Below are positions 1-7,110 of a stretch of 7,110 nt of DNA, one piece after another. Made by a program: the position numbers and the translations under genes. The stretch is from Candidatus Aenigmatarchaeota archaeon (GTDB lineage: Archaea; Aenigmatarchaeota; Aenigmatarchaeia; PWEA01; JACRMZ01), in assembly GCA_016219455.1 (NCBI GenBank), contig JACRMZ010000029.1:1-7110 (forward strand), written 5' to 3'. The notes below the pieces were generated by a model, which saw only the letters and a program-made list of their open reading frames with translations, was not told the DNA's origin and ran no database searches. Positions within the stretch are counted from its first letter, which is position 1; every line of letters begins with the position of its first letter.

Positions 1-13
1 GCTCTTCCGATCT
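1..13 (+). other. Illumina adapter remnant at contig end
   Basis: The first 13 bases, GCTCTTCCGATCT, are identical to the 3' end shared by the standard Illumina TruSeq adapters. They sit exactly at the sequence end, as expected of untrimmed adapter carried into an assembly. They should not be read as genomic. Identity to the adapter is seen directly; that it is contamination is an inference, but a strong one. Confidence 0.93.
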
Positions 14-58
14 GATAGTGTTCATGAACAGCGCCTAGAACATTTAAAAGAAGCCTAA
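14..58 (+). CDS. Possible C-terminal end of an upstream gene (partial)
   Basis: Directly after the adapter, one frame is open for 14 codons and ends in TAA at 56-58. It reads DSVHEQRLEHLKEA, a charged, helix-prone sequence that could be the tail of a gene cut off by the contig end. A 14-codon open stretch is expected often by chance, so the support is only its composition, its same-strand orientation and its end 25 bases before the next start. No family can be named. If real, the gene may be the upstream member of the KaiC operon. Confidence 0.27.
   Translation, partial: DSVHEQRLEHLKEA
43..50 (+). promoter_or_regulatory. Possible TATA box for the KaiC-like operon
   Basis: TTTAAAAG lies 34-41 bases before the ATG at 84 and resembles an archaeal TATA box. 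Transcription would start near 70-75, leaving a leader of about 10 bases that includes the AGGTTATC element at 74-81. That element differs by one base from the archaeal Shine-Dalgarno AGGTGATC. If the fragment at 14-58 is a real gene end, this promoter would lie inside it, so it is tentative. Confidence 0.35.
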
Positions 59-83
59 TCAAATAGATAAAACAGGTTATCAG

Positions 84-1724
84 ATGGAAGTTTCCTCGGA
101 AAGCTCAAGAACCGGCATAAAGGAATTTGACGACATCCTGTCAGGCGGTTTCCCCAAGGGCTCTGTTGTTCTGCTGTCAGGCTCATCCGGTTCGGGGAAA
201 ACGACGTTTGCGTTCCAGTGGCTATTTGAAGGCGTCAGGAAAAACGAGAACGGCATTTACATAACTTTGACAGAACCCCTTTTCCGGACGCTGAAGAACC
301 TTGAGGTGATGGATTTTTATTCGCGGGATGCGGTTGAAAGCGAGTCGCTAAAGATACTTGACGCAAGGGAAATTGGCGAGTTCAATGCCGAGAAAACGCT
401 CAAGTTCATAGAGAACGAAGTCAAGAAGTGCGACGCCAAGCGGTTGTGCATAGACTCGATAACCGCAATCGCATACAGCATAGATGACAAGGCTGGCATA
501 CGGAGGTTCATGTTCGAGCTGGGCAAAACGCTTGCGTCTTTGGGATGCACCACCATTCTCACAAGCGAAGTGCATGATGAAAACAAGTTTTCTGTCTATG
601 GCGTTGAGGAGTTCATATCCGATGCAATCATACGCCTGGACCAGGTAAAGGTAGGGGAGGGACTCCAGCACCGCCTCCAGATAATAAAAGTAAGGGGTAA
701 GGGCTACCGCTCGGACGAGCTTTTCTATAGGATAACCAGGGAAGGCATTTCGATTTTCCCGAAGTTCCATCTGGCGCTTTCCCACGGCTCGTCGTCTGTG
801 AGGGTCTCAGCTGGCAACGGGACTCTCGACGATATGATGGGAGGCGGCGTTTTTGCCGGTTCATCCACCCTTATAACAGGGCCAAGCGGGGCTGGCAAAT
901 CATTGTCGTCAATCCAGTTCATTGCAGAAGGGCTGCGCCGCGGCGAAGCGTGCCGATATGCCGGCTTCGAGGAGAGCCGCGAGCAGATAATAAGGAACGC
1001 CAAGGGATTTGGGATAAATTTTGATGACTTTGAGAAAAGGGGGCTACTTACCATCCGCTCGCTGTACCCTGGTGAGAAGTTCATAGACGAGCATCTTATG
1101 GGCATAGCCAACGCGATAGAAAAGGGCAGCATAAAGAGGTGTGCAGTCGACTCGCTGTCTGCACTGTACAACACGTTCCCAGAGGAAAACTACAACAGTT
1201 TTTCCAGAAGCCTTGAAGCATACCTCAAAAGCAAGGAAGTCACAAGCCTCTTTACAGCAAACACAGGCCTGGTTTCAGGAAGCGAGAAGATAGACGGAAG
1301 GTCGCAGGTCATGCCAGACAACATCATCATGCTCCGTTATGTGGAAATGAACGGGGAGCTGAGGAGGGTCATGAACGTCGTAAAAGTCAATGGCAGCGCC
1401 CACAGCAAGGGCCTGCGGTTATATGAGATAAGTTCGGAAGGGATTGTTATAGGGCGGTCTCTTTCCGGATACGAAGGGGTAACGACAGGTGTCTCAAGGA
1501 AGATCTCAGAGACGACTGAGGACATTATAGACGCGGAGTTCCGGAGATACCTCGGGCCGATGGGAGCGTCGGTTTTCAGGGAGATGAAGAAGCGTGGGAT
1601 AAGTGCGAGGAACGTCTCTGTCTACATAGACGAGCTGGAGAATGAAGGCATTTTGAAAAAAGAAGACGCCAGGAAATTCAAGCATTCAGTGCTTGAAATA
1701 ATAGGGAAGCGGGGGGAGGAATGA
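84..1724 (+). CDS. Two-domain KaiC-like RecA-superfamily ATPase (signal transduction)
   Basis: A cytoplasmic ATPase of the KaiC family, expected to form a hexamer-like ring and act as a signalling hub. Domain 1 (about 10-228) opens with TGIKEFDDILSGG, then Walker A GSSGSGKT (33-40) and Walker B-like CIDS (D124). Domain 2 (about 240-455) has Walker A GPSGAGKS (266-273), the Glu pair E296/E297 and AVDS (D356). The stretch YVEMNGELRRVMNVVKVNG (419-437) is very close to the KaiC CII core. By eye the CII phosphosites S431/T432 correspond to Q408/V409, so clock-type autophosphorylation is unlikely. Residues 470-546 add a helical extension absent from cyanobacterial KaiC. The start is ten residues before the conserved TGI, behind a Shine-Dalgarno-like AGGTTATC. 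It is the first gene of a five-gene operon and overlaps the receptor gene by ATGA. No kaiA or kaiB is present. Assignment to the KaiC-like family is firm; the specific function is inferred. Confidence 0.94.
   Translation: MEVSSESSRTGIKEFDDILSGGFPKGSVVLLSGSSGSGKTTFAFQWLFEGVRKNENGIYITLTEPLFRTLKNLEVMDFYSRDAVESESLKILDAREIGEFNAEKTLKFIENEVKKCDAKRLCIDSITAIAYSIDDKAGIRRFMFELGKTLASLGCTTILTSEVHDENKFSVYGVEEFISDAIIRLDQVKVGEGLQHRLQIIKVRGKGYRSDELFYRITREGISIFPKFHLALSHGSSSVRVSAGNGTLDDMMGGGVFAGSSTLITGPSGAGKSLSSIQFIAEGLRRGEACRYAGFEESREQIIRNAKGFGINFDDFEKRGLLTIRSLYPGEKFIDEHLMGIANAIEKGSIKRCAVDSLSALYNTFPEENYNSFSRSLEAYLKSKEVTSLFTANTGLVSGSEKIDGRSQVMPDNIIMLRYVEMNGELRRVMNVVKVNGSAHSKGLRLYEISSEGIVIGRSLSGYEGVTTGVSRKISETTEDIIDAEFRRYLGPMGASVFREMKKRGISARNVSVYIDELENEGILKKEDARKFKHSVLEIIGKRGEE
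1711..1720 (+). promoter_or_regulatory. Ribosome binding site for the receptor gene
   Basis: GGGGGGAGGA directly precedes the ATG at 1721 and contains GGAGG, complementary to the 16S 3' end. The spacing is unusually short, about one base. Together with the ATGA overlap this suggests translation coupled to the upstream KaiC-like gene. It favours ATG 1721 over the out-of-frame ATG seven bases later. Confidence 0.6.
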
Positions 1725-3037
1725 ACATATGGACCAAGATTGCCGCCGGGTTCGTTGCGATGGCGCTTTTGGTCGTTGTTGTCGGTATCGTTTCCATATC
1801 AGAGCTGAATGGCATTGCCAGGCCTCTTGGAGTCGATGTGCCCCAGAAGATAAAGGAAAGCTTTGACAACGTCATATACACATCAGAGTTGGAGAGCCTT
1901 GGCGAGGAGGTAAGGTTCTATGACGAGATTCTGACGCAGTCGGCGCGCAACTATGCATTAACAGGGGATAAAAAATGGGAAAAAAGATACAGGGATGCTG
2001 AGCCCAAGCTTGACAAGATAATAAAGTCTGTGTTGGAAAAAGGCGACGACGTTGACAAGAAGTTTTTCCGTGACATCGACAAATCAAACCTGGAGCTTGT
2101 AGAGCTTGAATACAGGTCAATATCCCTTTCCGGGCAAAAGAAAAACAGCGAGGCCATAGCCGTTTTGGACGGCTCCAACTACTCCGCCAACAAGGCGATT
2201 TATGCCACGGGAATACAGAACTTCTTCAACAAGAGGCGCAGCCAGGTAGACAACGCTTTTTCCGACTCAGTCAAGACGCTGGACTTTGCATCCATGGAAA
2301 GGGAGAGAACATTGGGAGCCGCCACATCAGTCGTGGTCGAAGTGGTGATAGTGGCACTTATCTTGTCGATACCCCTTTCAATTGCTCTTTCCTATATCAT
2401 ATCAAAACCAATAGTGAAGTTGACAAGGATCATAGACGACATAAGCAAGGGAAAGCTCGACTCGGAGATAGACGAAAGGATAAAAAACGGCGATGACGAG
2501 ATATCCGATCTTGCACGCTCATTCAACAGGACTATTGTCAGCCTGAAGCTGGCGATGAGGGAGACTACCCCACAGTTGAAGGAAGAGATGAATCACCTCA
2601 GGGAGGGATTAGGCGACACCAATCAGATAATGGAGATGCTAAACCGCTGCTACATCGTTTCCAAGACGGACACGGACGGGAAAATAAACTACGCAAACGC
2701 CGTCTTTTGCGAACTTTCAGGATACACGAAAGAGGAGCTCGTTGGCGCAAACCATAGCATCGTGAGCTCCGGTTTTCACTCGCAGGCCTTCTGGGAAAAG
2801 TTCTGGAACGCCCTTGAAAGCAAAAAGGTGTGGAGAGGGGACATAAGGAACAAGGCAAAGGACGGCACCATATATTGGGTCCGGAGCGTGATTTCCCCGG
2901 CGCTTGACAACAACGGGAAGGTCACGGGCTTCGTTTCAGTCCGTTACCTCATAAACGACCTGATGGAAGACATAGAACTTGACATAAAAAGCGGAAAGGA
3001 AACAGAGACGATAAGGAGGCTGAGGGATGGCGACTGA
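1721..3037 (+). CDS. Membrane receptor: extracellular helical sensor, HAMP, Aer-like PAS; no output domain
   Basis: An inner-membrane sensor of 438 residues. TM1 is about 5-28 and TM2 about 203-228. Between them is a helical ligand domain (29-202) with YDEILTQSARNYALTGD (67-83), a pattern I recall from the extracellular four-helix sensor domains of bacterial diguanylate cyclases and kinases. HAMP follows (about 229-282, starting KPIVKL), then a short coiled linker and a PAS domain (about 305-415). The PAS holds SGYTKEELVG, WRGDIRNKAKDGTIYWV and GFVSVR, closely resembling the FAD-binding PAS of the redox receptor Aer. The protein then ends in a 25-residue charged tail. There is no histidine kinase, GGDEF, or methyl-accepting signalling domain, so output must pass to a partner. 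Its position between KaiC-like genes, overlapping both neighbours (4 and 11 bases), makes those proteins the likely partners. FAD binding and partner choice are inferred. Confidence 0.92.
   Translation: MNIWTKIAAGFVAMALLVVVVGIVSISELNGIARPLGVDVPQKIKESFDNVIYTSELESLGEEVRFYDEILTQSARNYALTGDKKWEKRYRDAEPKLDKIIKSVLEKGDDVDKKFFRDIDKSNLELVELEYRSISLSGQKKNSEAIAVLDGSNYSANKAIYATGIQNFFNKRRSQVDNAFSDSVKTLDFASMERERTLGAATSVVVEVVIVALILSIPLSIALSYIISKPIVKLTRIIDDISKGKLDSEIDERIKNGDDEISDLARSFNRTIVSLKLAMRETTPQLKEEMNHLREGLGDTNQIMEMLNRCYIVSKTDTDGKINYANAVFCELSGYTKEELVGANHSIVSSGFHSQAFWEKFWNALESKKVWRGDIRNKAKDGTIYWVRSVISPALDNNGKVTGFVSVRYLINDLMEDIELDIKSGKETETIRRLRDGD
3013..3019 (+). promoter_or_regulatory. Ribosome binding site for the first pseudo-ATPase gene
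   Basis: AAGGAGG lies seven bases before the ATG at 3027, a near-ideal Shine-Dalgarno match and spacing. It lies inside the end of the receptor gene and fixes the start that gives an 11-base overlap. Confidence 0.75.
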
Positions 3038-3581
3038 ATTGATGGCGGCATTGGAGAACGTGCTGAAAAGCAACAAGAAAGTGATAATGATGGAGTTGCC
3101 TGCAGACCGTTACTTGGAAGCAGGCTCCGCCTCTGTCAAGGTACTCATCGACCTTGGGTACAGGGGCGTCTACGTGAGCTTCCAGCGGCCGTGCTCCAAC
3201 ATATCTTCAATCCTCAGCAGAAACGGGATAGACACAAAAAAGCTCGTGTTCATAGACGCGGCTTCGCCACTTGCCGAAGAAAAGAAAACAGGAAATTGCG
3301 TTTATATTTCCGAGCGTGTCGAAGTAGACGAGCTTGTCCGCGCCGTATACACCTCGCTGGGGAAATTGGAAGGGAAAAAGTTCATCTACATAGACTCGAT
3401 TTCAACAATCGCGCTTTACAAGCCGTTGTCCGAGACCATGAGGCTTTCGGAATTCCTTGTGAGCACCGTGCGGAAAGAGAACTGCACCCTTGTTTTCAAT
3501 GTCGCCAAGGACCTTGCGCAGAAGAAGTTCGTGCGTGACATAGCGTTGAAGGCTGACGCAGTTATAGGGGTAGCTGAATGA
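3027..3581 (+). CDS. RecA/KaiC-fold protein without Walker A (pseudo-ATPase), 184 aa
   Basis: A soluble protein, probably one KaiC-like RecA domain that has lost nucleotide hydrolysis. The strand and helix order follows the fold: VIMMELPA (19-26) sits where the P-loop strand should be but has no GxxxxGK[ST]; then GVYVSF (47-52), KLVFIDAASP (72-81), and a clear Walker B-like strand FIYIDSIST (119-127, D123) matching the DSxS of KaiC. It ends IALKADAVIGV (172-182), like the end of a KaiC core, but stops before the KxRGxxH hairpin that supplies residues to a neighbouring subunit. It overlaps the receptor gene by 11 bases and the next gene by ATGA, with a strong ribosome binding site. The likely role is a structural or regulatory partner of the ring ATPase or receptor. 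A degenerate RecA-like sensory domain such as MEDS is an alternative. The coding call is firm; the fold is by motif order only. Confidence 0.88.
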   Translation: MATELMAALENVLKSNKKVIMMELPADRYLEAGSASVKVLIDLGYRGVYVSFQRPCSNISSILSRNGIDTKKLVFIDAASPLAEEKKTGNCVYISERVEVDELVRAVYTSLGKLEGKKFIYIDSISTIALYKPLSETMRLSEFLVSTVRKENCTLVFNVAKDLAQKKFVRDIALKADAVIGVAE

Positions 3582-4138
3582 TTGACCAGGCATTGATTGA
3601 GAAAAACATCGACAGCCTCGGGAAAGGATGGATAGCACTGCTGGAAGTCCCGGCTGAAAGCCTGACAGAGGCTGAAATCGTCTCACTGAAGGCGCTTGTT
3701 GACAGGAACATTTTTTGCATCGTCCTTTCGGGAACCAAGCCGTATACCAGCCTTTTGCAGTTCTACAATGGCCTTTCATTGGACACCAATAAAATAGCTG
3801 TCATCGATTGCGTAACAGGAACATCGAAGCAAAACGTTGAGGGCAAGGTATGGTATATGGACGGTCCTAATGCGCTCACCCAGATATCCATTGCCATGTC
3901 AGGCGCCATCTGCAATGGCGGGGAGGATAAGGCAGTCTTGGTGGACACGTTGACGTCATTTCTGATGCACAACAAGACTGAAATCTTCGTGCGCTTTGCC
4001 CATTCGCTTGTGACAAAGGCAAGGATAAACGGGGCAAGCTGCCTTCTCCTTTCCGTAGACGACACCATGTCACGCGAGACTCGGGCGGAGATAGTACAGC
4101 TCTGTGACAAAGTAATAAGTGTCCATGACAAATTATAG
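3578..4138 (+). CDS. RecA/KaiC-fold protein without Walker A (pseudo-ATPase), 186 aa
   Basis: A second single-domain protein with the same layout as its upstream neighbour and nearly the same length. WIALLEVPAESL (18-29) replaces the P-loop, FCIVLSGTKPYTSLL (46-60) matches the helix-initiating strand, and KIAVIDCVTG (72-81) matches the FIDA strand. The Walker B-like strand is KAVLVDTLTSFL (118-129, D123). GASCLLLSVDD (152-162) and LCDKVISVHDKL (175-186) close the core. No GK[ST] is present, so ATP hydrolysis is unlikely. It begins at the ATGA overlap with the preceding stop, behind a weak AGGGGT element, so translation is probably coupled. It is probably an ancient duplicate of the neighbouring gene, now strongly diverged. 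Its function is unknown; membership of a KaiC-type complex is inferred from the operon. Confidence 0.87.
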   Translation: MIDQALIEKNIDSLGKGWIALLEVPAESLTEAEIVSLKALVDRNIFCIVLSGTKPYTSLLQFYNGLSLDTNKIAVIDCVTGTSKQNVEGKVWYMDGPNALTQISIAMSGAICNGGEDKAVLVDTLTSFLMHNKTEIFVRFAHSLVTKARINGASCLLLSVDDTMSRETRAEIVQLCDKVISVHDKL

Positions 4139-4140
4139 CC

Positions 4141-4797
4141 ATGGAGAACCTTCTCGATTCCCTCAAGCCGATTGCCAAGGGCGGTTTGCCGGTTGAAAGT
4201 TACCTGTTAATAGGACCTCCTGGGTGCGGGCTTTCCACCTTCCTGAAGCATCTATCGAAAAGCTGGATTGAAAAAAAAGGGAACGTAGTTTTCCTCGACA
4301 CCGACAAGTATCCGGAAGAGCTGAAGAAGTTTTTCAGCGGAAGGGTGTACGGAAGCGAGACGTTGTCGATAATAGACGCCTATAGCTGGCGCTTCAACAC
4401 TGGATGGACAGAGACGCCGCGCCTGGACAGCCCGACTGCCCTTGCCATGGCGATAGACAAAGAGATTGATGGTAAGGCTAACGTCCTGTTTGTCTTTGAC
4501 TCGTTGACAACGATGCTTCCCCTCGTGTCGGTAAAGATGTTTGAGTCATTCGTCCACTCATCCATAGGCCGTTTGCGGGGGAAATCTGCGACATCATTCT
4601 TCTCACTTGCCGATGGGAGCGTTGACCCCGCAACAGAGTCGTTCCTGCGGTCCGTCTTCGACGGCGTGTTTGAGATAAAACTCGAGAACTCCAAGGAGGG
4701 ATTGAAAAGATTTTTGAGGGCGTTTTCATTGAAAGGCACGGAGCACTCTACAAACTGGAACGAGTTCAGGATAAACGACGGGATAGAGTTTGTCTAG
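4141..4797 (+). CDS. KaiC-like single-domain protein with altered Walker A (Lys to Leu)
   Basis: The most KaiC-like of the three small partners, 218 residues. The P-loop is recognisable as GPPGCGLST (25-33), but the invariant lysine is Leu31, so ATP hydrolysis should be lost or badly impaired while the loop itself remains. LSIIDAYSWRF (75-85) is typical of archaeal KaiC-like proteins, and VLFVFDSLTTML (115-126) is the Walker B strand with D120. Unlike the two upstream partners it keeps the C-terminal hairpin, including KGTEH (198-202), which resembles the KaiC KxRGxxH element that contacts the neighbouring subunit's nucleotide. The ATG comes two bases after the preceding TAG and has no visible Shine-Dalgarno, which points to re-initiation by terminating ribosomes. 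An in-frame stop at 4126-4128 rules out a longer ATG, GTG or TTG start. Last gene of the operon. Confidence 0.9.
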   Translation: MENLLDSLKPIAKGGLPVESYLLIGPPGCGLSTFLKHLSKSWIEKKGNVVFLDTDKYPEELKKFFSGRVYGSETLSIIDAYSWRFNTGWTETPRLDSPTALAMAIDKEIDGKANVLFVFDSLTTMLPLVSVKMFESFVHSSIGRLRGKSATSFFSLADGSVDPATESFLRSVFDGVFEIKLENSKEGLKRFLRAFSLKGTEHSTNWNEFRINDGIEFV

Positions 4798-4810
4798 CGC
4801 CGTCCTCATC

Positions 4811-4827
4811 AACGGTTTTTATCCGTT
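4811..4827 (+). terminator. Hairpin with T-rich loop ending the KaiC operon
   Basis: AACGG TTTTTAT CCGTT is a perfect 5-bp inverted repeat whose loop holds five T residues on the + strand. It begins 13 bases after the last stop of the operon. Archaeal termination depends mainly on T runs, so this is a plausible + strand terminator. On the - strand the run is A, so it does not obviously end the CDGSH transcript arriving from the right. The gap of 33 bases holds nothing else visible. Confidence 0.5.
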
Positions 4828-4830
4828 ATG

Positions 4831-5004
4831 CTATCCCTGAGCCACGGTTATCTCGAAAGCCGGCGCAATGAACGTCCCCTTGTGCGATTCGTCGCAGTAC
4901 GGGGGCTTTTTGGATTTACCGCATCTGCACAGGGAAAACTTCTTTTCCTCGTCCACGAAAACCTTGAGCGAGCCGTTCTCCTTTGCGGACAAGACGACTT
5001 TCAT
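4831..5004 (-). CDS. CDGSH iron-sulfur domain protein (second of pair), 57 aa
   Basis: A small single-domain [2Fe-2S] protein of the CDGSH (mitoNEET-like) family, expected to be a redox or cluster-transfer dimer in the cytoplasm. The motif is LCRCGKSKKPPYCDESH (25-41); the predicted ligands are C26, C28, C37 and H41. The Gly of CDGSH is Glu here, a position outside the ligand set. The real start is the ATG at 5004, giving MKVVLSAKENGS, two bases after the stop of the upstream CDGSH gene. The same frame stays open to an ATG at 5109, but those 35 extra codons are the upstream gene read out of frame and have no family resemblance. Only a weak AGGT precedes the start, so coupling to the upstream gene is likely. 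Both proteins have 57 residues, which suggests a tandem duplication. Confidence 0.9.
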   Translation of the reverse strand: MKVVLSAKENGSLKVFVDEEKKFSLCRCGKSKKPPYCDESHKGTFIAPAFEITVAQG

Positions 5005-5006
5005 AA

Positions 5007-5180
5007 TCACAGTACCTTTGTCTCTGATGCCGGAGCTTTGAATTCCGCTTTCCTGTGGGAACCGTCGCAACTGGGCTTCTTGTTGGAGTGGCCGCATCTG
5101 CAGAGCCATTGGACTGCTTTCCCGTCAACCTCCACTATTGAAGGGCCGTTTTCCATCGATTTTATCGTTACTTTGGACAT
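5007..5180 (-). CDS. CDGSH iron-sulfur domain protein (first of pair), 57 aa
   Basis: Reading the - strand from the ATG at 5180 gives MSKVTIKSMENGPSIVEV and onward to TGA at 5007. The core is LCRCGHSNKKPSCDGSH (26-42), an exact C-x-C-x2-S-x3-P-x-C-D-G-S-H motif, with predicted [2Fe-2S] ligands C27, C29, C38 and H42. The tail HRKAEFKAPASETKVL is normal for the family, so the gene is intact and not a frameshifted half of a double-domain protein. The start is supported by GAGGTGAT (5184-5191), three bases upstream, an eight-base match to the archaeal anti-Shine-Dalgarno. At 57 codons it falls below common gene-length cut-offs and is easily overlooked. It leads a two-gene unit diverging from the TauE/SafE transporter, which hints at a shared link to sulfur or redox state; that link is inferred. 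Confidence 0.92.
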   Translation of the reverse strand: MSKVTIKSMENGPSIVEVDGKAVQWLCRCGHSNKKPSCDGSHRKAEFKAPASETKVL

Positions 5181-5183
5181 TCA

Positions 5184-5191
5184 ATCACCTC
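5184..5191 (-). promoter_or_regulatory. Ribosome binding site of the first CDGSH gene
   Basis: On the - strand GAGGTGAT ends three bases before the ATG at 5180. All eight bases fit the expected archaeal 16S 3' end (complement of GGAGGTGATC). This settles the start of the short gene. Confidence 0.75.
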
Positions 5192-5211
5192 ACCATAATT
5201 AGCACAACACA

Positions 5212-5228
5212 TTAAAAAGCGTTTTTAA
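5212..5228. promoter_or_regulatory. Palindromic crossed TATA boxes of the divergent CDGSH and TauE/SafE promoters
   Basis: TTAAAAA GCG TTTTTAA is a perfect 7-bp inverted repeat around three bases. On the + strand the left arm lies 26-32 bases before the transporter ATG at 5244, the distance for a leaderless transcript; no Shine-Dalgarno is seen there. On the - strand the right arm (TTAAAAAC, 5228 to 5221) would start transcription near 5196, giving a leader of about 16 bases that includes the GAGGTGAT site. The palindrome is seen directly; its promoter role is inferred from spacing. Confidence 0.55.
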
Positions 5229-5243
5229 CCCAAACACCCATAT

Positions 5244-6179
5244 ATGACTATGGGCGAGGGCGATGCATTCCTTGGCGTTTTCGGCGAACAGCCAAAATCG
5301 AGGAGAGCAGGGATAATAGTCTTCCTTTTCCGCCTTCTCTGCCTGATTGTCATACTTGTGTCGTTCTTCAGGCAGGACATAAACGCCTTCCTTTCCTCTT
5401 CAAAACAAAACATTTCACTCGAGGTATTCACAGGCGAGATTGGGGCGACGACAATCGTGGCGTTCATTGTTGTCGGTTTTCTTGCGCAGCTAGTCGACGG
5501 CGCGCTGGGGATGGCTTACGGCATAACATCCACGACGTTCCTGCTCAGCGTTGGCGTTACTCCGGTGATATCAAGCGCTTCCGTCCACTCGTCAGAAGTG
5601 TTCACTACGGCAATCTCAGGGATTTCCCACCTGAAGCTTGGGAATGTCGACAAGGAGATTTTCAAAAAACTCGTGGTTCCGGGAGTCATTGGCGCCGTCA
5701 TGGGGGCTTACATACTCACGGCGCTGCCTGGCGAAAAACTGAAACCATTTGTTTCGCTCTATCTTCTCCTGATGGGAGTGAGGATACTTCTTGCAGCCAG
5801 CAACAGGGAACCCAGGACCCCCAAGATCAACATGGCCCCGCTGGGGTTTATCGGCGGCTTCCTTGATTCAATCGGCGGGGGAGGCTGGGGGCCTGTCGGG
5901 ACAACGACGCTAGTAGAGAAGGGACACACGCCGCGTTTTACCATAGGCTCCGTGAACGCCGCAGAGTTCTTCATTTCGATGGCGTCAAGCGCAACATTCT
6001 TCCTTACGATAGGGCTCCAGAACTGGAAAGTGATAGCAGGGCTGATAATAGGCGGGGCGCTTGCCGCACCCATAGCAGCGTTCGCGACGAAGTCCCTCCC
6101 GGAGAAACATATGCTGACTGCTGTCGGGCTTCTTATCTGCATCCTCAGCATAAGGACTATATTCCTTTCGGTTTTCTGA
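5244..6179 (+). CDS. TauE/SafE-family membrane transporter (putative sulfite/organosulfonate exporter)
   Basis: A polytopic membrane protein of 311 residues with about eight or nine hydrophobic segments. Two internal repeats carry the family signature: GFLAQLVDGALGMAYG (79-94) followed by TTFLLSVG, and GFIGGFLDSIGGGGWGPVG (201-219) followed by TTLVEKG. Members move sulfite, sulfoacetate or other anions across the cytoplasmic membrane; the substrate cannot be read from sequence here. The N-terminus is longer than usual, with an extra hydrophobic helix (about 22-42) and a polar stretch before the first repeat. ATG 5244 fits the upstream TATA-like arm as a leaderless start; ATG 5250, two codons later, is the alternative. 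It diverges from the CDGSH pair and shares its promoter region. No clear terminator follows the TGA at 6177-6179. Confidence 0.92.
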   Translation: MTMGEGDAFLGVFGEQPKSRRAGIIVFLFRLLCLIVILVSFFRQDINAFLSSSKQNISLEVFTGEIGATTIVAFIVVGFLAQLVDGALGMAYGITSTTFLLSVGVTPVISSASVHSSEVFTTAISGISHLKLGNVDKEIFKKLVVPGVIGAVMGAYILTALPGEKLKPFVSLYLLLMGVRILLAASNREPRTPKINMAPLGFIGGFLDSIGGGGWGPVGTTTLVEKGHTPRFTIGSVNAAEFFISMASSATFFLTIGLQNWKVIAGLIIGGALAAPIAAFATKSLPEKHMLTAVGLLICILSIRTIFLSVF

Positions 6180-6225
6180 ATTGCGATACCCGGCCACTTC
6201 CCGATTAGCTGCCAAAAAGTTAGCA

Positions 6226-6234
6226 CTTTATAAT
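6226..6234 (+). promoter_or_regulatory. TATA box upstream of the UbiD-family gene (distal)
   Basis: CTTTATAAT is the best match to an archaeal TATA box in the gap after the transporter gene. It lies 25-33 bases before an ATG at 6259, the same spacing as for the transporter, so a transcript would begin at or near that ATG. It is also about 75 bases before the decarboxylase ATG. The activity is inferred. Confidence 0.5.
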
Positions 6235-6258
6235 GGCTACATAAAATACGCAGAACCG

Positions 6259-6312
6259 ATGCCTGCTGGACAAAAGAAGCTTAAACCCTTTGGGAGCAAT
6301 TTATTTTCATGA
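6259..6312 (+). CDS. Possible 17-aa leader peptide overlapping the decarboxylase start
   Basis: ATG at 6259 opens a 17-codon frame, MPAGQKKLKPFGSNLFS, ending in TGA at 6310-6312. The stop shares ATGA with the decarboxylase ATG at 6309, the same junction used twice in the KaiC operon. The start lies 25-33 bases after the CTTTATAAT box, so it could be the first codon of a leaderless mRNA that delivers ribosomes to the decarboxylase, which has no Shine-Dalgarno. An ORF this short can arise by chance, and the peptide matches no family I know. Confidence 0.3.
   Translation: MPAGQKKLKPFGSNLFS
6279..6286 (+). promoter_or_regulatory. Possible proximal TATA box of the UbiD-family gene
   Basis: GCTTAAAC lies 23-30 bases before the ATG at 6309, preceded by a purine-rich stretch (AAAAGAA) where a BRE would sit. 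This would give a leaderless decarboxylase transcript and competes with the distal box as the explanation for the start. The remaining gap from 6180 to 6225 shows no gene, RNA or clear terminator. Confidence 0.42.
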
Positions 6313-7110
6313 AAGACATTTTGCAAGTTTTCGATTCTGCCGGGTTGCTTAAGAGAGTTAAGAGAAGCGTCGACCCGAGATTCGAGATACCCGCAATAAT
6401 AAAGGAGGCAGGCTCCACGCCGCTGCTTTTTGAGAACGTCAAAGGCTCCCGTATCCCAGTTGCCTCAAACATATGCGGCTCCCGCGAGCTTGTGGCAATC
6501 GGACTTGGCATAAAAAAAGACGAGATAATAAAAACTCTCGCCAACGCCATAGACAATCCCAAGGAGCCTTTCGTTTCCAAAAAGCACGATTACAGGGAAA
6601 TGGAAGTTGACCTTGGAAAAATCCCAATCCTTACATACTACCCCACAGACGGCGGCCCGTACGTCTCGTCCGGCATCGTTATCGCAAGGGACAAGGAGCT
6701 TGGGATAAACGCGTCTTTCCACCGCGGCATGGTGATAGGGAAGGACAGGATGGTTTTCAGGATTCTTGAAAGGGATTTTGGCAAGTTCATTTCACGCGGG
6801 CTCAAGGAATTTGCGTATTGCATCGGCTCGCCGATTCAGGTTCTTATTGCTGCGGCAATTTCGACTGAGAAGCCGGAACTGGGCATAGCCAACGCGCTGA
6901 AGAGCACAGAGCTTGTAGAGCTTGCCGGCCACGCCGTCCCGAAAGCTGACATCGTCATGATAATGGAGTTCACTGGCGAGATGGCCGACGAGGGGCCGTA
7001 TGTTGATTTGACAGAGACTTCTGACATCGTAAGGAAGCAGCGTGTGGCGAGGGTGAAAAAGATATTTGCAGTCGATAATCCGATTTTCCACGGGCTGCTT
7101 GCAGGCGACT
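6309..7110 (+). CDS. UbiD-family decarboxylase, likely anhydromevalonate phosphate decarboxylase (3' partial)
   Basis: The first 267 residues of a UbiD-family enzyme; the frame is still open at the window end, and the family is usually a little over 400 residues. UbiD enzymes decarboxylate with prenylated FMN supplied by a UbiX-type prenyltransferase. Family features visible are NICGSRELVAIGLGI (54-68), INASFHRGMVIGKDR (133-147) in the cofactor and metal region, and DEGPYVDLTETSDIVRKQ (227-244). That last motif matches the DEGPF-VD-T-TYD-VR pattern I associate with the archaeal branch acting in the modified mevalonate pathway to isoprenoid lipids, rather than the EGPFGE pattern of ubiquinone or phenolic-acid enzymes. 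PIFHGLLAGD at the truncated end is also family-like. No Shine-Dalgarno precedes ATG 6309; it is either leaderless from the box at 6279-6286 or coupled to the short upstream ORF. Family membership is firm; the exact substrate is inferred. Confidence 0.9.
   Translation, partial: MKDILQVFDSAGLLKRVKRSVDPRFEIPAIIKEAGSTPLLFENVKGSRIPVASNICGSRELVAIGLGIKKDEIIKTLANAIDNPKEPFVSKKHDYREMEVDLGKIPILTYYPTDGGPYVSSGIVIARDKELGINASFHRGMVIGKDRMVFRILERDFGKFISRGLKEFAYCIGSPIQVLIAAAISTEKPELGIANALKSTELVELAGHAVPKADIVMIMEFTGEMADEGPYVDLTETSDIVRKQRVARVKKIFAVDNPIFHGLLAGD

Follow-up and report, generated by a model that had tools for sequence, protein, structure and literature searches.

A KaiC-type ATPase with a STAC-like domain is encoded beside a transmitterless HAMP-PAS receptor in an Aenigmatarchaeota gene row

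The DNA analysed here (the window) comprises bases 1-7110 of an 8326-base contig (C36, JACRMZ010000029.1), which starts at window base 1 and belongs to an 866 kb draft genome of a Candidatus Aenigmatarchaeota archaeon with a completeness estimate of 65%. Five open reading frames (ORFs), g1 to g5, are tightly packed on the + strand between positions 84 and 4797, with successive overlaps of 4, 11 and 4 bases followed by a 2-base gap, in exact agreement with an initial annotation made from the sequence alone. g1 (84..1724, 546 aa; assigned from the ORF and Pfam) encodes a two-domain KaiC ATPase that carries a STAC-like domain at its C-terminus, and g2 (1721..3037, 438 aa; ORF, Pfam and hydrophobicity) encodes a receptor in which an extracytoplasmic region lies between two transmembrane segments and is followed by HAMP and PAS domains but no transmitter. 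The three remaining genes encode a KaiC-fold protein without a P-loop (g3, 3027..3581, 184 aa; Pfam, profile comparison and model), a KaiC-like DUF7504 protein without a P-loop (g4, 3578..4138, 186 aa; Pfam and profile comparison) and a KaiC-family protein with a damaged P-loop (g5, 4141..4797, 218 aa; Pfam and motif search). No HisKA/HATPase or REC domain was found in the full Pfam lists of g2 to g5 (10, 6, 2 and 13 families, respectively) or among the best 25 of the 37 Pfam matches of g1. None of the eight window proteins scanned with Pfam was a KaiA, KaiB or archaellum protein, g1 being judged on its best 25 of 37 matches.

Two PF06745 domains were identified in g1, with a Pfam score of 319 bits against a curated cut-off of 26.6, in line with the two-domain KaiC-like ATPase described in the initial annotation, from which only the third, C-terminal domain was missing. 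g1 scores 330 bits against 8zn5, a designed KaiC, whose TFEE/FEES, ISTITDT and KxRG-type stretches are taken here to be the KaiC catalytic, phosphorylation and trans-finger sites. In the CI domain of g1 (105..773, + strand; Pfam, alignment and motif search) the P-loop (Walker A GSSGSGKT) is retained, TLTE replaces TFEE at the catalytic Glu pair, leaving one of the tandem Glu residues, and the KxRG finger is retained as KVRG. In the CII domain (801..1463, + strand; alignment and motif search) the P-loop (Walker A GPSGAGKS) and FEES are retained, with SQVMPDN in place of ISTITDT and the finger reading KVNG for KMRG. Because the phosphorylation-loop residues are altered, a conformational or ATPase-based output is more likely than one by phosphorylation cycling, and a KaiC-type phosphorylation cycle appears unlikely; the substitutions of TLTE for TFEE in CI and KVNG for KMRG in CII leave the ATPase activity of g1 itself uncertain. 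g1 falls below the cut-offs of the circadian KaiC families (NCBIfam circ_KaiC, 327.9 bits versus 546.25; PRK09302, 394.8 bits versus 408). It matches many P-loop families in Pfam, and its match to the Elp4 family (E 2e-9) is unspecific.

The last ~70 residues of g1 are likely to be a STAC domain, as judged from their sequence features (1500..1721, + strand; sequence search and single-sequence model, predicted helical). The STAC family has a consensus of four helices and the motif LGPx(x)A (PMC4834066), and is familiar from small proteins whose genes are in translational coupling with those of transmitterless HAMP receptors, as in Af1502/Af1503. Three helices and nothing else were predicted for the 74-residue g1 tail (pLDDT 88 in the single-sequence model), a length and helical make-up in keeping with the 60-90 residues of this helical domain family, and residues 490-495 (1551..1568, + strand) read LGPMGA, which fits the published motif. 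The motif is also present as LGPMA in a stand-alone copy of the domain in a relative genome, G003, and is absent from a third copy, which reads IGPMGT. Coupling to a transmitterless HAMP receptor is seen in both genomes, since g1 overlaps g2 by 4 bases and the stand-alone STAC-like gene of G003 overlaps a Cache-HAMP receptor gene by 4 bases. No STAC-family chain was recovered at E<=10 in PDB sequence searches with the STAC-like domain, in which the weak matches were taken as chance, and no match above cut-off was obtained in Pfam or NCBIfam; Af1502 itself has been reported as a singleton in sequence-profile searches. A tblastn search of the stand-alone protein against plasmids gave 9 weak partial matches that were taken as unrelated, and in a search for named relatives with the g1 alignment, the STAC-like domain was absent from all 24 KaiC loci returned, which belong to other organisms.

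Hydrophobic 19-residue windows in g2 cover residues 1-34 and 196-232, followed by a HAMP domain at residues 223-275 (2387..2545, + strand; Pfam) and a PAS domain, likely a flavin/redox sensor, at 2654..2956 (+ strand; Pfam, with boundaries at residues 310-407, and match to 3ewk). None of the 10 Pfam matches of g2 is a transmitter, so that the sensor-HAMP-PAS protein without a transmitter proposed in the initial annotation holds. As aligned to 3ewk, g2 ends 26 residues past the PAS domain, in a C-terminal tail (2957..3034, + strand) that ends GKETETIRRLRDGD and is kept in the proteins P0011 and P0012 and in the G003 paralogue at locus L045. A transmitterless HAMP protein of genome G033 (L060:15072-15950) ends EKDLEAGKLKAENKKIRERLDKLRKGNRK, loosely resembling this tail. 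The g2 PAS domain is identical at 46 of 101 residues to the first PAS domain of 3ewk ('Sensor protein'), which is presumably MmoS, and its next-closest matches are an aerotaxis receptor and the nitrogen fixation regulator NifL. The 3ewk protein, the aerotaxis receptor and NifL bind FAD, and redox input to g2 through a flavin-type PAS domain is therefore likely. P0018 and P0020 (621 aa; the latter from Nitrosopumilus adriaticus) share 33 and 31% identity with g2 over 93 and 95% of its length, respectively, and, unlike g2, add HisKA and HATPase domains; by resemblance to these complete kinases, g2 looks like the receptor half of a kinase. HAMP is not the sole cytosolic part of g2, as it is followed by the PAS domain and the tail, whereas the G003 receptor at L191:3809-4987 has HAMP as its only cytosolic part, as expected of an Af1503-like receptor.

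The products of g3, g4 and g5 are kin of KaiC. g5 passes the cut-offs of both PF06745 (43.3 bits versus 26.6) and DUF7504 (27.8 versus 27), and g4 passes that of DUF7504 (31.9 versus 27) and scores 16.1 bits for PF06745, below 26.6. For g3, PF06745 scores 26.2 bits, just below 26.6, DUF7090 scores 24.0 bits, below 27, and no Pfam match to DUF7504 was found at E<=1. The g3 model (pLDDT 87) has FlaH (ArlH), PH0284 and KaiC as its best Foldseek matches, and comparing a profile of 12 g3/g4-type proteins with one of 8 KaiC proteins gave a probability of 93 and an E-value of 2.4e-7. The Pfam scores, the g3 model and the profile comparison thus bear out the earlier assignment of three small RecA-fold proteins, for which a family search could have shown them to be unrelated to RecA/KaiC. 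The motif GxxxxGK[ST] is absent from g3 and g4, and g5 has a degenerate Walker A, GPPGCGLST, with Leu for Lys (4213..4239, + strand; motif search). Both g3 and g4 stop short of the C-terminal finger hairpin, whereas g5 retains it, with a finger-like loop SLKGTEH. PMC5088202 reports that the Elongator subunits Elp4-6 keep ATPase activity, so that the loss of a P-loop or a degenerate motif does not by itself settle the activity of g3 to g5. Similarity of g3 to the Elp5 family was below the Pfam cut-off (E 0.007). Also among the Foldseek matches of the g3 model are two Pyrococcus structures, PDB 3bs4, in which PH0321 binds an unknown peptide, and 2ekd (PH0250); peptide binding as in 3bs4 would fit an adaptor role for g3-type proteins.

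The relative genome G003, from another family of the same order, consists of one 875-kb contig with a completeness estimate of 90%. At its locus L044, a KaiC-STAC gene is followed after 38 bases by a gene for a CHASE-HAMP receptor whose C-terminal end is charged and helix-like, then by an H-NOX gene on the opposite strand and by counterparts of g3 and g4 that overlap by 4 bases. About half of the residues of g1 (51%) and g3 are identical to those of their L044 counterparts, compared with 37% for g4, and the g1 counterpart has KVRG in both domains. Conservation of gene order, which the initial annotation had proposed as a check across all five genes, was thus found for KaiC, HAMP receptor, g3 and g4, and their recurrence in the same order indicates that the row is more than chance. 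g5 had no match in G003 at E<=1e-3, and the supported unit is therefore one of four genes. Three HAMP matches were found in G003 (L044, below the Pfam cut-off, L045 and L191), none of them on a transmitter-bearing protein, and neither a response regulator nor a histidine kinase (HK) turned up in the genome search, the single HATPase_c match being topoisomerase VI B. In the window's own draft genome, g2 is the sole HAMP match, contig C37 has one REC gene next to one HK gene, and another HATPase_c match, on C7, appears on visual inspection to be the same topoisomerase subunit. The H-NOX gene at L044:8052-8588 (+, opposite in strand to its neighbours, between the CHASE-HAMP receptor and g3 genes; haem-NO-binding, 127.5 bits) could provide this system with a gas-sensing input. 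In a further genome, G013, a PAS-HK gene lies upstream of a two-domain KaiC without a STAC-like domain (L185:1973-4546), which is followed by a thioredoxin/KaiB-like protein (KaiB below cut-off) and a MEDS protein.

Of 156 genomes, 47 have genes of the g3/g4 family (termed iKaiC, for inactivated KaiC) at E<=1e-10; class-level and phylum-level searches covered 156 genomes each with the same leading rows, and apparently represent one set. Neighbourhoods were counted on greedy longest ORFs in 40 loci, from which L045, L060, L063 (the window's contig) and L137 (which overlaps L048) were excluded, leaving 36 loci with 52 iKaiC ORFs, and controls were taken from 20 of 30 randomly drawn regions, those near iKaiC matches having been dropped and others removed to keep the number at 20. 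An HK, REC, HAMP, PAS or KaiC gene lay within 5 kb of 40 of the 52 iKaiC genes and 2 of 80 control ORFs of 150-230 aa, a comparison biased toward finding such genes at the iKaiC loci as the seed sequences were drawn from these loci and the window, and in which two G050 controls overlap each other and the control region L176 contains a sensor/KaiC cluster. HK genes were near 19 and REC genes near 18 of the 52. Two or three iKaiC genes occur together in 8 of the 36 loci, one beside REC and another beside a PAS, HK or KaiC gene; clusters with one iKaiC gene beside a stand-alone REC are those of L046, L047, L049, L050, L054, L147, L149 and L156. In a tree of 43 of the 52 iKaiC proteins (150-300 aa) with g3, g4 and four database proteins, an HK/REC-linked clade of 23 rows (support 100/99) contained one clade of 10 (support 100/100) with nine of the ten REC-adjacent rows, and g3, loosely placed on a long branch, and g4 fell outside the clade of 23. 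The placement of g3 and g4 as orthologues of the REC-adjacent and HK-adjacent iKaiC pair, towards which phmmer leaned, was rejected because the tree puts both outside that clade.

In 39 of the 40 loci (L137 omitted, the window and L060 included), a tail reading VGRELKMxELK or similar ends 12 of 16 transmitterless sensors but none of 13 kinases or 359 control ORFs. Tails like VGRELKMIELKKRIRELEK end the transmitterless sensors of L046, L047, L048, L050, L055, L060, L150 and L156, and from its sequence this shared tail is likely a docking helix. The unlabelled ORF L147:9836-10390 also has a VGREL-type tail. The VGREL tail is absent from the receptors of the window (g2), L044 and L045, and two wirings seem to exist, one linked to HK and REC and one based on KaiC-STAC. 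In one family, f15, KaiC genes of three genomes (L186, L187 and L188) adjoin small, apparently membrane or V4R-type genes (V4R checked with Pfam in L188).

At its start the contig carries gctcttccgatct (1..13, strand not assigned), a contig-end remnant that is taken to be the end of an Illumina sequencing adapter; as the contig begins at window base 1, genes upstream of the row may be missing. Downstream of the row lie a gene for a CDGSH iron-sulfur protein (4831-5109, - strand) and, 446 bases from the end of the row, a TauE/SafE-family exporter gene (5244-6179, + strand).

The reading preferred here, which is given an even chance of being correct, is that the kinase-less HAMP-PAS receptor g2 switches a KaiC-type ring through the STAC-like domain of g1, with g3 to g5 probably serving as partner subunits or adaptors. 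A ligand bound on the extracytoplasmic side and the flavin state of the PAS domain would set the HAMP/PAS dimer of g2, and the changed dimer would meet the STAC-like domain of g1 differently; the KaiC ring would then shift its nucleotide state or its partners, and g3, g4 and g5 would bind the ring or the receptor and relay this state to a target. The arrow from receptor to STAC-KaiC is the best supported, because the same small domain occurs in two settings, adjoining a HAMP-only receptor or as part of a KaiC that neighbours a HAMP receptor, whereas the place of g3 to g5 and the target are the least supported parts. Direct signalling from the receptor to KaiC, as suggested in the initial annotation, gains support from the STAC-like tail as a candidate link and from a genome, G003, that has HAMP receptors and in which two-component parts were not found; the earlier interpretation as a whole is partly supported, its mixed ring with g1 as the only ATPase remaining hypothetical. 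Conservation is narrow, as the g1 tail domain is confidently present in 2 of the 156 genomes searched. A more far-reaching form of the proposal, a kinase-free archaeal signalling route in which Af1503-type HAMP receptors act via STAC adaptors on KaiC rings, and in which STAC is here fused into KaiC, P-loop-less paralogues complete a mixed ring and the assembly state is the output, is put forward tentatively and is on balance doubtful. If true, STAC would be to KaiC as CheW is to CheA, and a KaiC partner would be expected for stand-alone STAC proteins in other genomes.

Signalling by g2 through two-component proteins from other loci, such as the HK encoded beside REC on C37 with which it might pair, and with the KaiC genes as separate housekeeping or scaffold partners, is improbable. 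It would explain the adjacent REC and HK genes of the same genome, the frequent proximity of g3/g4-family genes to HK or REC genes and the tail motif shared by most transmitterless sensors in the class loci, but G003 retains KaiC-STAC, receptor, g3 and g4 where REC and HK were not found, the receptors g2, L044 and L045 are without the VGREL tail, and g3 and g4 lie outside the HK/REC-linked clade. STAC domains are also reported to connect SLC5 transporters with signalling modules, and transport genes are often enriched at Af1503-like loci (PMC4834066). In keeping with this published proposal, the STAC-like domain and receptor could regulate membrane transport, such as through the TauE/SafE exporter, with KaiC merely powering or gating it. 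An opposite-strand CDGSH gene, however, intervenes before the TauE/SafE gene, and in the small part of the two G003 loci that the scan covered, none of the proteins was recognisable as a transporter; a transport role is given little weight.

Elp4, Elp5 and Elp6 are paralogues with altered nucleotide sites. According to PMC5088202, the three form a heterohexameric ring of RecA-like fold. An analogous ring of g3, g4 and g5, holding or releasing a target, with KaiC-STAC as a receptor-controlled loader, would account for the presence in one row of three different KaiC-like subunits whose P-loops are damaged or missing, and would fit the similarities of g3 and g1 to the Elp5 and Elp4 families. Since g5 is unmatched in G003, the Elp4 match of g1 is unspecific, and g3 and g4 are short and without a C-terminal finger hairpin, such a ring is considered unlikely. 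Elongator shares the use of three RecA-fold subunits with this row, and differs in that the row is of a signalling type and a ring of its products is hypothetical.

Af1503 of Archaeoglobus fulgidus is the source of the classical structure of HAMP. The Af1503/Af1502 pair resembles the present system in its effector-less receptor, its STAC-like partner with LGPx(x)A and its translational coupling, the coupling overlap lying between the stand-alone STAC-like gene and the receptor gene at G003 L191 and between KaiC-STAC and the receptor in the window. It differs in that here the STAC-like domain is fused to KaiC, a PAS domain follows HAMP in g2 and degenerate KaiC genes stand in the row. Cyanobacterial KaiC has the two-domain architecture of g1 with both P-loops, whereas in g1 the phosphorylation-loop residues are replaced and one CI tandem Glu is lost, and ArlH/FlaH, the best Foldseek match of the g3 model, differs from g3 in that the latter has no P-loop. 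Archaeal KaiC-like hubs and iKaiC proteins (DUF835, MEDS) were proposed by Makarova, Galperin and Koonin in 2017, as cited in PMC5847659, PMC6393860 and PMC13286277, and likewise join KaiC ATPases and inactivated KaiC domains with sensory modules; the present row differs in having no HK or REC, a candidate adaptor domain on KaiC, and separate iKaiC genes of the DUF7504/DUF7090 type. Archaeal KaiC-like hubs and inactivated KaiC are thus already proposed by others (PMC5847659). STAC is not mentioned in PMC5847659, nor KaiC in PMC4834066. The new part may be the KaiC-STAC fusion as an effector for orphan HAMP receptors, no literature search having combined STAC and KaiC.

Members of the Af1503 receptor family have no recognisable effector module (PMC4834066), and the STAC-like/KaiC fusion beside a transmitterless HAMP receptor provides a concrete candidate effector for them. 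G003, which has HAMP receptors and in which two-component parts were not found, shows where this candidate can be tested. If the proposal is true, archaeal KaiC hubs would gain a defined membrane input, and inactivated KaiC proteins would gain a role.
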